A stretch of DNA of 64,000 nt from an uncultured Chryseobacterium sp. (lineage in GTDB: Bacteria > Bacteroidota > Bacteroidia > Flavobacteriales > Weeksellaceae). The notes beneath the pieces are model-generated. The model did not search any database. It was not told the DNA's origin and saw only the letters and a list, made by a program, of their open reading frames with translations. The stretch covers positions 1 through 64,000 of the forward strand of contig CAJYXJ010000041.1 in the NCBI GenBank assembly GCA_913778085.1, in the 5' to 3' direction. Positions 32,119 through 39,114 of this stretch are shown here, in pieces (the stretch's first letter is position 1; each line of letters starts with the position of its first letter). A program made the position numbers and the translations under genes.

Positions 32119-32126
32119 TATATTTG
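32119..32126 (+). promoter_or_regulatory. -7 box of the YadA-head-like gene
   Basis: TATATTTG, giving a leader of about 27 nt to the ATG at 32160. Confidence 0.5.
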
Positions 32127-32159
32127 CAGTCGGAAACTATAACCATAAAATATATAAAC

Positions 32160-33533
32160 ATGTACACAACATCCAGATCAAAGATCGCAGTGACGATCTT
32201 GCTGCTGCTTTATTTTAATTTTTCATTTTGCCAGGTCGGAATAGGAACCACTACGCCGGATCCCTCATCCATTCTGGATGTTAAATCCACAAATAAAGGA
32301 ATACTGCTGCCCAGCATCGCTATCACATCCCTTACCGATAATAGTACAGTCCTTTCCCCGGCCAACGGACTTATTATCTGGAACAACGGATTAGGAGGAC
32401 TTGCCGATACCGGGCTGTATTACTGGAACAATCAGAAATGGAATAAAATTTCTATTGCCGGTACGCCCGGTACAATCGCTTCTGGTATCTCCGGAAATGC
32501 GTGGAATAATTCCGCCACCAACGGCGGAAACAATGCAGGAGGCAATACCCATCTCTCATTGGGAACCAATACTTATGATGATCTGATCTTTAAAGTAAAT
32601 TCGGTAAAATCAGGCAGATTGGGAACCGATAACTCGGTAAGCCTGGGAGCAGGAGCCAATGCCGGACAGAACGGTATCGCTATCGGAATGTCGGGTTCCG
32701 CCTATCAGGGTGTTTCTATAGGAAACGAAGCTTCAGTAAATGCAAACGATGGTCTGGCTGTGGGAAATAAAGCCATGGCGGCGGCTTATAAGTCGAATGC
32801 CATCGGATATAATGCAAAAACCAATAAAAATGAATCCACTGCCATAGGTAATAATTCCTTTGCCGACGGATTCCAGTCTACTGCGATCGGCTATAATGCG
32901 AAAACCTCAGCCAACGAATCTTCTGCACTGGGGAATAATTCCGAAGCTGCGGGCTTTCAGTCGGTAGCCTTGGGATACAGCGCCAAAACAAATACAAATA
33001 GTGAAACAGCTGTTGGATATTATGCTGCAACCGGCGGACAGCATTCAACGGCTGTCGGTTCGGGAGCCTCGGCAACAGGTCAATATTCCACGGCAATAGG
33101 ATATAATGCCTCTGCTTTACAGGCTAATGCGATTGTTATAGGAAGTAGCAACGCTAATGTCGGGATTGGAACCTCTACACCCAATACCACCACAAAACTG
33201 GATGTAAGCGGACAGTATAAGCTGGGAAACCAGGGTACAGTCCATAAAAACCAGATCAGTTTTGAAGTCTGGCCGGTGGTCTCTATCCATAACCTGCCAT
33301 GCGGCAAATCCACGACGATGAATATTGCGGTTCCTGCAGCGATGATTCCTTCTTCAACAAAAGCGACGATTACCGTAACACCGGCATCAGATTTTCCGGG
33401 AAATTCAACATTTTCCATTTCAAACCCGAGAATGACTTCCACTTCCAACATCACCATAAACCTTACAAATATATCTGCAAATGCTGAAAGCCTGTATTCT
33501 GCGCATTTTTACGTAATGATTAATGAATTTTAA
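32160..33533 (+). CDS. Secreted protein with YadA-like head repeats
   Basis: A 457-residue exported protein: signal ending in FSFCQ, then VGIGTTTPDPSSILDVKST, a start motif common to Bacteroidota surface proteins. Residues about 160-345 are some 13 units of a 14-residue repeat with the form S-x-A-I/L/V-G-x-x-A, as in the trimeric left-handed beta-roll of YadA heads. A second VGIGTSTPNTTTKLDV follows, and a C-terminal beta domain of about 95 residues. There is no YadA membrane anchor, no sorting signal that I can identify and no glycosyl hydrolase motif. It may be a secreted adhesin or fibre. The ATG at 32160 opens the signal peptide. Confidence 0.75.
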   Translation: MYTTSRSKIAVTILLLLYFNFSFCQVGIGTTTPDPSSILDVKSTNKGILLPSIAITSLTDNSTVLSPANGLIIWNNGLGGLADTGLYYWNNQKWNKISIAGTPGTIASGISGNAWNNSATNGGNNAGGNTHLSLGTNTYDDLIFKVNSVKSGRLGTDNSVSLGAGANAGQNGIAIGMSGSAYQGVSIGNEASVNANDGLAVGNKAMAAAYKSNAIGYNAKTNKNESTAIGNNSFADGFQSTAIGYNAKTSANESSALGNNSEAAGFQSVALGYSAKTNTNSETAVGYYAATGGQHSTAVGSGASATGQYSTAIGYNASALQANAIVIGSSNANVGIGTSTPNTTTKLDVSGQYKLGNQGTVHKNQISFEVWPVVSIHNLPCGKSTTMNIAVPAAMIPSSTKATITVTPASDFPGNSTFSISNPRMTSTSNITINLTNISANAESLYSAHFYVMINEF

Positions 33534-36322: not shown

Positions 36323-39064
36323 ATGGATCTATTTGTATTAGTACCCATTTTTGGGGTTATTGCCTTGGTGTATACTTACCTTCAGAGCAATTGGGTTAAT
36401 AAGCAGGATGCCGGAAATGAAAAAATGAAACTTATCAGCGGCCATATCGCTGACGGTGCGATGGCCTTTCTGAAGGCCGAGTACAGAATTTTAACTTATT
36501 TCGTCATCGTCGTAGCCATTCTCCTGGCGGTAATGGGCATGAGCAATGCCAATTCGCACTGGACCATCGGAATTGCTTTTATCTTTGGAGCGATGTTCTC
36601 TGCATCGGCCGGCTTTATCGGGATGAAAATTGCCACCAAAGCCAACGTGCGGACGGCAGAGGCTGCCAGGACTTCTCTTTCAAAGGCCTTAAAGGTTTCT
36701 TTTACCGGAGGTTCCGTGATGGGAATGGGGGTTGCCGGATTGGCCGTGTTAGGATTGGGGGCCTTGTTTTTAATTATCAGACAGATATTTGCTCCAAATT
36801 CCCCGGTGGACTCTCATGAAATGGAAAGAACCATCGAAATTCTTACCGGTTTTTCATTGGGTGCCGAATCCATTGCGCTGTTTGCAAGAGTAGGCGGAGG
36901 GATTTATACCAAAGCTGCTGATGTAGGAGCGGATCTTGTAGGAAAAGTAGAAGCGGGAATTCCTGAGGATGATCCACGAAATCCGGCCACAATTGCCGAC
37001 AATGTAGGGGATAATGTAGGTGATGTTGCCGGAATGGGAGCAGATCTGTTCGGTTCTTATGTAGCGACTGTCCTGGCAACCATGGTGCTGGGAAGAGAAA
37101 CCGTTTCCCAGGATTCTTTCGGAGGTTTTGCTCCAATCCTTTTACCGATGCTGATTGCCGGGACAGGGATTATTTTTTCAATTGTAGGGACTTTATTTGT
37201 AAGAATTAATGATAATGAAGATTCATCCACCTCCAGTGTTCAGAATGCCCTGAATCTGGGGAACTGGGGAAGTATTGTCATCACGGCTATCGCTTCTTAT
37301 TTCCTGGTAACCTATATTCTGCCGGATAAAATGATACTGAGGGGACATGAGTTTTCCAAAATGGGCGTTTTCGGAGCCATTATGGTAGGGCTGGTGGTTG
37401 GAACTCTAATGAGCATTATTACGGAATATTATACGGCAATGGGTAAAAGGCCGGTTTCCAGCATCGTACGGCAGTCTTCAACCGGGCATGCTACGAATAT
37501 TATCGGCGGTCTTTCCGTAGGAATGGAATCAACTTTGCTGCCGATTATTGTGCTGGCAGGCGGAATTTATGGTTCCTATCTGTGTGCCGGACTGTACGGT
37601 GTAGCTATTGCCGCGGCTGGAATGATGGCAACAACAGCCATGCAGCTGGCCATTGATGCATTCGGGCCCATTGCAGATAACGCAGGCGGAATCGCTGAAA
37701 TGAGCGAATTGCCGAAAGAAGTTCGTGAGAAAACGGATATTCTGGATGCCGTAGGTAATACAACCGCCGCTACCGGAAAAGGATTTGCCATTGCTTCCGC
37801 AGCACTGACGGCTTTAGCTCTTTTTGCAGCGTTTGTAGGTATTGCAGGAATCGATGGGATCGATATTTACCGGGCGGATGTATTAGCCGGATTATTTATC
37901 GGAGGAATGATTCCTTTTATCTTTTCATCTTTAGCTATTACAGCTGTCGGGCAGGCAGCTATGGCCATGGTGGAAGAGGTAAGGAGACAGTTCCGTGAAA
38001 TTCCGGGAATCCTGGAAGGAAAAGCACAGCCTGAATATGAAAAATGTGTAGCTATTTCTACCGATGCCTCCATTAGAAAAATGATGCTGCCTGGAGCTAT
38101 TGCTATTATTTCACCATTATTGATCGGATTTATTTTCGGTCCCGAAGTATTGGGCGGATTTTTAGCCGGAGCTACTGTAAGCGGGGTGTTGATGGGAATG
38201 TTTCAGAACAATGCAGGCGGTGCATGGGACAATGCCAAAAAATCATTCGAGAAAGGTGTAAATATAAGCGGAGAAACCTATTATAAGGGTTCGGAACCTC
38301 ATAAAGCTTCAGTAACCGGCGACACCGTTGGTGATCCTTTCAAAGATACCTCCGGGCCTTCGATGAATATTCTGATCAAATTAATGTCAATAGTATCACT
38401 GGTTATAGCACCAACCTTAGCGGTTATGCATAAAGATAAAATAGAGGCCAACCGGAAAGCGAAACTGGAAGCTTTAACGGGAACTGCCGGTATTGCTACC
38501 GTTAATCCGGCTGCTGCAGCGGCTAACGGGACCGGAGCCGTAGTGCTGCCTGAGGTGAAAGGTTATCTGAATGAAAACGGAGACTTCGTATATGATACTG
38601 GAGCGGTAAAAGAAGTAGAGCTGAAAGACGGTAAAAAAATAAAAATTGGGGAAGGCAGCCAGATGTATCAGCTGTACGATGCCGTTAAAAACAAAGATCA
38701 GGCAGTTTTGGATCCGAACAGGTGGTATACCATCGAGAACCTTTATTTTGAAACAGGATCCAGCGATCTGAGACCGGGTTCCGATGCGCAGCTCCTCAAT
38801 CTGGTAGAGCTCTTGAATGCTTATCCGACAATGAAAATAAAACTGGGGGGATACACCGATAACAGCGGAAACGAAGAAAGCAACCAGAAACTATCCAACT
38901 TGAGGGCCCAGACTGCGAAGCTTAAATTATTGGAGCTTGGTGTAGGCGGCGACAGGGTGGAAGCGGAAGGTTACGGTTCCCAACACCCGGTATGCGAAGC
39001 CAATGATACTGAAGAATGTATGGCGAAAAACAGAAGGATTGACGTGAGAGTGCTGTCTCTATGA
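36323..39064 (+). CDS. hppA: Membrane ion-translocating pyrophosphatase fused to a C-terminal OmpA domain
   Basis: A 913-residue fusion. Residues 1-710 are a full membrane pyrophosphatase (about 16 membrane helices) with the catalytic loops [11 protein letters not shown] (200-210) and DNVGDNVGD (226-234). GNTTAA at 478-483 has alanine where potassium-independent pumps have lysine, so it should be the K+-dependent, probably sodium-pumping class. A linker of about 90 residues rich in alanine leads to an OmpA/MotB-type peptidoglycan-binding domain (about 800-913) with [36 protein letters not shown] and NRRIDVRV. Pyrophosphatase C-termini face the periplasm, so the OmpA domain could anchor the pump to the cell wall. 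Monocistronic, with its own terminator. Confidence 0.93.
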
Positions 39065-39084: not shown

Positions 39085-39114
39085 AAAGCACTGCCGAACG
39101 CAGTGCTTTTTTTT
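39085..39114 (+). terminator. Terminator of hppA
   Basis: A perfect 10-bp stem AAAGCACTGC / GCAGTGCTTT with loop CGAAC and an eight-T tract. Confidence 0.9.

Follow-up and report, generated by a model that had tools for sequence, protein, structure and literature searches.

Membrane pyrophosphatases (M-PPases) are homodimers, with a hydrolytic centre on the cytoplasmic side and an ion gate directed towards the periplasm (PMC5150537, in part). The K+-dependent H+-PPase of Flavobacterium johnsoniae has its gate glutamate at position 5.43 (excerpts of PMC10897367 and PMC6882861), no Glu at 6.53 and the motif GNTTAA; this type is listed in published class tables, and part of another paper reports a shift of the glutamate to helix 5 in a lineage that switched from Na+ to H+ pumping. 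M-PPases extended by a C-terminal OmpA-like domain have been documented in Burkholderiales, as exemplified by the 810-residue protein of Paucibacter sp. KCTC 42545, and the passages of PMC11210485 at hand call the role of this domain still to be elucidated. As in the protein reported here, the M-PPase core precedes the OmpA-like domain in one chain, but according to the same passages the Burkholderiales core is K+-insensitive, as opposed to the K+-dependent core with E5.43 described below.

Three outer-membrane proteins, PorE, Capnocytophaga OmpA and OprF, possess the same fold and D/N/R triad as the domain reported here, which instead hangs from an inner-membrane pump. MotB and PomB, which belong to ion-using complexes, are, like the predicted fusion, inner-membrane proteins reaching the wall by an OmpA-type domain; their complexes admit ions for work, whereas an M-PPase expels ions using PPi. 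The MotB matches of the present protein are confined to its tail, its core being that of an M-PPase, and no homology to the MotB/PomB stators is found outside the OmpA domain.

The window analysed here is a stretch of 64,000 nucleotides from an uncultured Chryseobacterium sp. of the family Weeksellaceae (contig CAJYXJ010000041.1). It contains the fusion gene (36323..39064, + strand) in a single frame from ATG to TGA, encoding 913 residues followed by the stop, with no internal stop across these 913 codons in the window sequence and its translation. The absence of a stop between the two parts had already been seen in the preliminary description, made from the sequence alone. The encoded protein matches the NCBIfam family NF001955 with 1268.1 bits (cut-off 1059). 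An AF2 model of the full protein (mean pLDDT 77.7, pTM 0.69, 36-row alignment) displays an M-PPase fold followed by a helix at 704-719, disorder over 720-743, a small beta/alpha pre-domain and a separate OmpA domain. The comparison drew on 60 relatives of the window genome, 36 of them from the same genus. All 37 same-genus genomes (the window genome and these 36) carry the fusion, aligned over residues 1-912 or 1-913 with 86-100% identity, in open frames of length 902-914. An assembly error joining two genes, the weakness that the preliminary description itself had named, is excluded by these 37 genomes, single-contig ones included, and is also countered by the same fusion in named strains of other genera; its probability is negligible. 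The M-PPase-OmpA fusion is real and genus-wide, but it does not extend to the whole family.

The gene has a divergent SUI1 gene upstream and a convergent aminotransferase gene downstream. Directly past its stop, a hairpin followed by a T run (39085..39114, + strand), identified by eye, resembles an intrinsic terminator. Because of the divergent SUI1 gene and this hairpin, the fusion gene is likely a single-gene unit. By the coordinates read, 19 of the 23 same-genus genomes have a soluble PPase gene (PF00719) up to 3 kb upstream of the fusion (in one of them, G021, as a fragment at a contig end). The two genes are apart in the window genome, where the soluble PPase lies at G000:C20:10085-10603, and in G013, G014 and G019. 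The idea that the pump might localise ion flux close to TonB/ExbB or to gliding complexes was abandoned: no such gene was found among the five neighbouring genes scanned with Pfam, and the gene usually found next to the fusion in the genus, that of the soluble PPase, favours PPi metabolism instead. Elsewhere in the window (32124-33533, + strand), a 469-residue, secreted-looking protein is encoded, the repeats of which (AIGYNAKTNKNESTAIGNNS..) resemble those of trimeric-autotransporter heads.

The core (residues 12-695; 36356..38407, + strand) matches Pfam H_PPase over the entire 645-position model (E 7.1e-273), and Foldseek retrieves solved M-PPases with the AF2 model at E 8e-45 to 4e-32. By full-length homology, intact catalytic motifs and fold, it belongs to the M-PPases, complete and with its catalytic loops preserved as first described. 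The motif GNTTAA is confirmed at residues 478-483 (37754..37771, + strand) and marks the K+-dependent type, as already proposed, by the sequence and by the class table in the available part of PMC10897367. In an alignment with solved M-PPases, E182 (codon 36866..36868, + strand) faces the Ser found there at 5.43, the position of the gate Glu in F. johnsoniae-type H+-PPases, and G244 replaces the Glu 6.53 of Na+-PPases. Having GNTTAA instead, the core is not of the K+-insensitive Burkholderiales type, K+-insensitive M-PPases carrying a Lys in GNTTK. It has Glu at 5.43 but not at 6.53, together with Ala at 12.46, like the K+-dependent H+-PPase of F. johnsoniae, the choice of which Ala of GNTTAA fills 12.46 being our assumption. 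Since E occupies 5.43 and G occupies 6.53, the core is predicted from these motif positions to be a K+-dependent H+ pump of the F. johnsoniae type, to which the window protein adds a linker, a pre-domain and an OmpA domain. A Na+-PPase of the Thermotoga type, with Glu at 6.53, was rejected on the gate residues, G244 standing at that position; of the sodium or proton pump first envisaged, only the proton pump is retained. The family name of NF001955, sodium-translocating, differs from this motif-based assignment. The gate E5.43/G6.53 is shared by 144 of 147 distinct readable homologues, the other 3 having S5.43/E6.53; by locus, 150 of 151 homologous loci are readable, 147 with the former and 3 with the latter pair.

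The tail begins with a linker (residues 701-745; 38423..38557, + strand), composed of the helix 704-719 and a disordered, Ala-rich stretch (720-743) with pLDDT below 50 in the AF2 model. It is followed by the conserved beta/alpha pre-domain (about 746-805; 38558..38737, + strand), defined on the same model and common to a stand-alone DUF937-TM-OmpA protein (L213/L225, see below), and by an OmpA-type peptidoglycan-binding domain (806-913; 38738..39061, + strand). Pfam OmpA (PF00691) matches residues 808-897 at E 3.7e-15 and 56.5 bits (cut-off 27.2) in the full protein, and at E 3.5e-16 in the 214-residue tail alone. Foldseek returns the OmpA domains of OprF (5u1h), Capnocytophaga OmpA (5wtp) and PorE (6top) at E 6e-6 to 2e-5, that of OprF superposing at 1.3 Å over 105 columns. 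Profile, fold and triad place the domain among OmpA_C-like domains. The Ala-rich linker and C-terminal OmpA/MotB-like domain with its NxxLSxxRA signature (N854, L857, S858, R861, A862) are upheld by Pfam and motif; of the segment first assigned to the domain, 790-913, the start moves to about 806, with the pre-domain ahead of it.

The triad D846, N854 and R861 (38858..38905, + strand) has the spacing of PorE D576/N584/R591, is invariant in an alignment of 10 fusions, and the pattern D-x7-N-x6-R is found in 59/59 fusion loci (57/57 distinct sequences). When PorE holds a peptidoglycan fragment, its D576, N584 and R591 side chains form hydrogen bonds with that fragment (PMC7192894, in part). By homology, the tail is predicted to bind peptidoglycan. 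In pairs among 20 same-genus genes, the median dN/dS is 0.017 for the core, 0.26 for the linker (701-744), 0.088 for the pre-domain (745-805) and 0.041 for the OmpA domain (186, 136, 103 and 92 of 190 pairs with usable dS, respectively), these values being rough because dS, with medians of 1.4-1.7, approaches saturation. Purifying selection acts on the OmpA domain. This selection, together with the retention of the tail in 37/37 same-genus genomes, speaks against a neutral leftover of domain shuffling at a periplasmic M-PPase end that tolerates nearly any periplasmic domain; the variety of unrelated tails found there, and the absence of this one from close relatives, would fit such a leftover, which we hold to be highly improbable.

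The side of the membrane on which the tail emerges was deduced from helix 16. N682 and K686 match the 16.46/16.50 ion-gate spacing, downstream of a motif that belongs to the cytoplasmic hydrolytic centre; helix 16 therefore runs outward. Other tails at the same C-terminal place are typical of the periplasm (FKBP_N + FKBP_C in L095, BON + OmpA in L115). A Lys/Arg-rich sequence lies just past helix 16, and the positive-inside rule alone would not favour an outside location. Helix polarity and the kinds of tails suggest that the C-terminus of the fusion is probably periplasmic, in agreement with the placement first proposed.

The account we favour, and consider fairly probable, is that of a K+-dependent, PPi-driven inner-membrane H+ pump whose periplasmic OmpA tail is tethered to peptidoglycan. 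The M-PPase chain would emerge from its final helix into the periplasm and end in the OmpA-type domain, which would grip peptidoglycan by its diaminopimelate stem peptide. As a homodimer, the pump would be attached to the wall twice via a flexible tether, and binding in the cell may fix the pump or staple the inner membrane to the wall. A wall-anchored pump with its domain on the wall, as the preliminary description had it, is plausible because the M-PPase is of the K+-dependent type, the OmpA domain is intact, triad included, and the C-terminus is probably periplasmic. Alternatively, the domain might pair with that of the dimer partner or cover the exit channel, tuning pumping with no wall binding in the cell: two OmpA domains would stand side by side in the M-PPase homodimer (PMC5150537, in part), and the core persists with or without the tail. 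Such a cap is decidedly unlikely, since a complete peptidoglycan triad in 57/57 distinct fusions would be superfluous and the modelled disorder at 720-743 makes a fixed cap unlikely.

In 15 genomes searched, the best stand-alone matches to the tail are DUF937-TM-linker-OmpA proteins. Pfam confirms DUF937 and OmpA in L206, in L213 (= L225) and in L205 of the window genome itself, and the others are named by resemblance to these three. L225 (G039) has the pre-domain and the PVCAANDTDEC end in common with the fusion tail, and L229 of Spirosoma validum resembles the M-PPase tail of the same genome. Like the fusion, these proteins are predicted to reach the wall from the inner membrane via an OmpA-type domain, but they have a single apparent TM and carry no known enzyme. 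Across the 59 fusion loci, 57-162 residues (median 98) separate the end of helix 16 and OmpA; among stand-alone DUF937-type TM-OmpA proteins (10 distinct ones), OmpA follows the end of the TM after 64-112 residues. The same module therefore serves elsewhere over a comparable span. A tree built from 37 modules, 26 of them from fusions, shows the fused and the stand-alone ones intermixed, with at least 4 changes, 2 of which are forced by starred branches, and with 9 of 34 forks open. This intermixing and the similar spacing fit a further explanation, in which selection acted on the tether rather than on where the pump sits, the dimer being a handle that holds the inner membrane to the wall, probably the job that DUF937-TM-OmpA proteins do. 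Such a staple would be redundant in the window genome, which encodes a DUF937-TM-OmpA protein as well as the fusion, and we regard it as a possible but rather unlikely account.

The combination of M-PPase and OmpA is already in print. The Bacteroidota set, its gate type, the repeated change of the tail and the DUF937 relatives were not found in the literature searched, the passages of PMC11210485 at hand make no mention of Bacteroidota fusions, DUF937 relatives, gate type or triad, and a search for DUF937 with OmpA returned no paper. The available part of PMC13078209, on Elizabethkingia miricola OmpA proteins, contains no occurrence of "pyrophosphat-".

M-PPases are present in 245 of 321 genomes of the family and, by the rows read, in 168 of 174 genomes of the genus, 6 being without any. 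In other families of the order, 22 of 23 genomes have some match, with M-PPase matches ending near residue 699-726. The OmpA model finds no match in the tails sampled from them (L087-L101, L118, L119). As the tail HMM derives from Weeksellaceae sequences, very divergent OmpA tails may have escaped it. Within the same family or its named kin, L082-L085 and L138 have short or Cys-rich tails without OmpA. In an order survey of 395 genomes, all 57 full-length matches, among those listed, fall in the own family. A phylum survey of 395 genomes yields at least 14 fused genomes, at least 10 of them through a full-length match (8 from the own family and 2 from f24) and 4 added by reading of the tails (G809 in f24, G669 and G756 in f33, G843 in f58). 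A scan of named genomes, covering the best 80 of 529 confirmed matches, places the fusion in Chryseobacterium, Kaistella, Taibaiella, Spirosoma, Emticicia and MAGs. One MAG locus, titled Phycisphaerales (L135), clusters with Bacteroidota M-PPases and is taken as mis-binned or transferred, though counted among the fused rows. The fusion loci examined number 59 (57 distinct sequences).

On a quick LG+G4 tree of 132 M-PPase cores (41 fused; same-genus rows thinned to 6 among loci with group codes; long-branch warning at L115), the OmpA label requires 10 changes, of which starred branches force 6 or more; once L046, cut by a contig end, is dropped, the minimum is 9. The tail has been gained or lost repeatedly, gain and loss being indistinguishable, and the fusion occurs in several Bacteroidota genera outside the own one, scattered over the tree. 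In f33, L120 is devoid of an OmpA tail beside the closely related cores L113/L114 that have one, a recent gain or loss. Its absence from close relatives (L082-L085, L138, L120) means that the pump can do without the tail. M-PPase and OmpA appear to have been joined in three M-PPase subfamilies, this one, the L115 type and that of Burkholderiales; the last, being a different subfamily, probably has a separate origin. The wall-anchored pump is less unusual than first thought, an OmpA-like tail on Burkholderiales M-PPases being already published (PMC11210485, in part). Plasmid-borne spread was rejected: in a tblastn search of the fusion protein (P0001) against plasmids, 377 records match and none covers 80% of the query. 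The Persicobacter plasmid records CP012860.1 and NZ_AP025295.1 carry M-PPase genes about 74% identical to the window core, matching residues 1-712 and 2-699 only.

A diversity of other tails has also been observed. L095 (G389:C17:10200-13200) bears FKBP_N and FKBP_C on the M-PPase C-terminus in one 923-residue frame, joining a peptidyl-prolyl isomerase to the pump in a single chain. L115 (G843:C1:2860500-2864300) is a 998-residue M-PPase with S5.43/E6.53, the Na+-pump type, and a BON + OmpA tail; this core and this tail make its fusion look separate. Cys-rich stretches past the last helix are found in L082 (G219) and L083 (G216) of the same family, ending in QCCK and ECCK, and in L101, as well as in the linker of L142; these may be metal or redox sites. 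Unassigned tails of 96-147 residues are carried by L087, L088, L090-L093 and L099 (f7), and by loci of Chitinophagaceae, L108, L141 and L175 among them. With their first residues omitted, the tails of L087, L090, L093, L108 and L096 (f8) have no Pfam match at E 0.01. A wider proposal, unlikely and offered as speculation, would make the tether part of the pump: pull or spacing of the wall would pass via the linker to helix 16 at the ion gate, so that H+ pumping, driven by the PPi that the synthesis of cell material releases, would sense wall growth or periplasm width, and the M-PPase C-terminus in Bacteroidota would be a docking site repeatedly taking up periplasmic modules (OmpA, BON + OmpA, FKBP, Cys-rich).

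The fusion offers a clean test system, with two well-known domains in one chain, in which point mutants should spare the enzyme while breaking binding. Primary ion pumps are usually thought of as free in the membrane, and a pump tied to the wall would say that its seat or its hold can matter. With such tails on several separate M-PPase branches, some bacteria seem to pin this pump to the wall.
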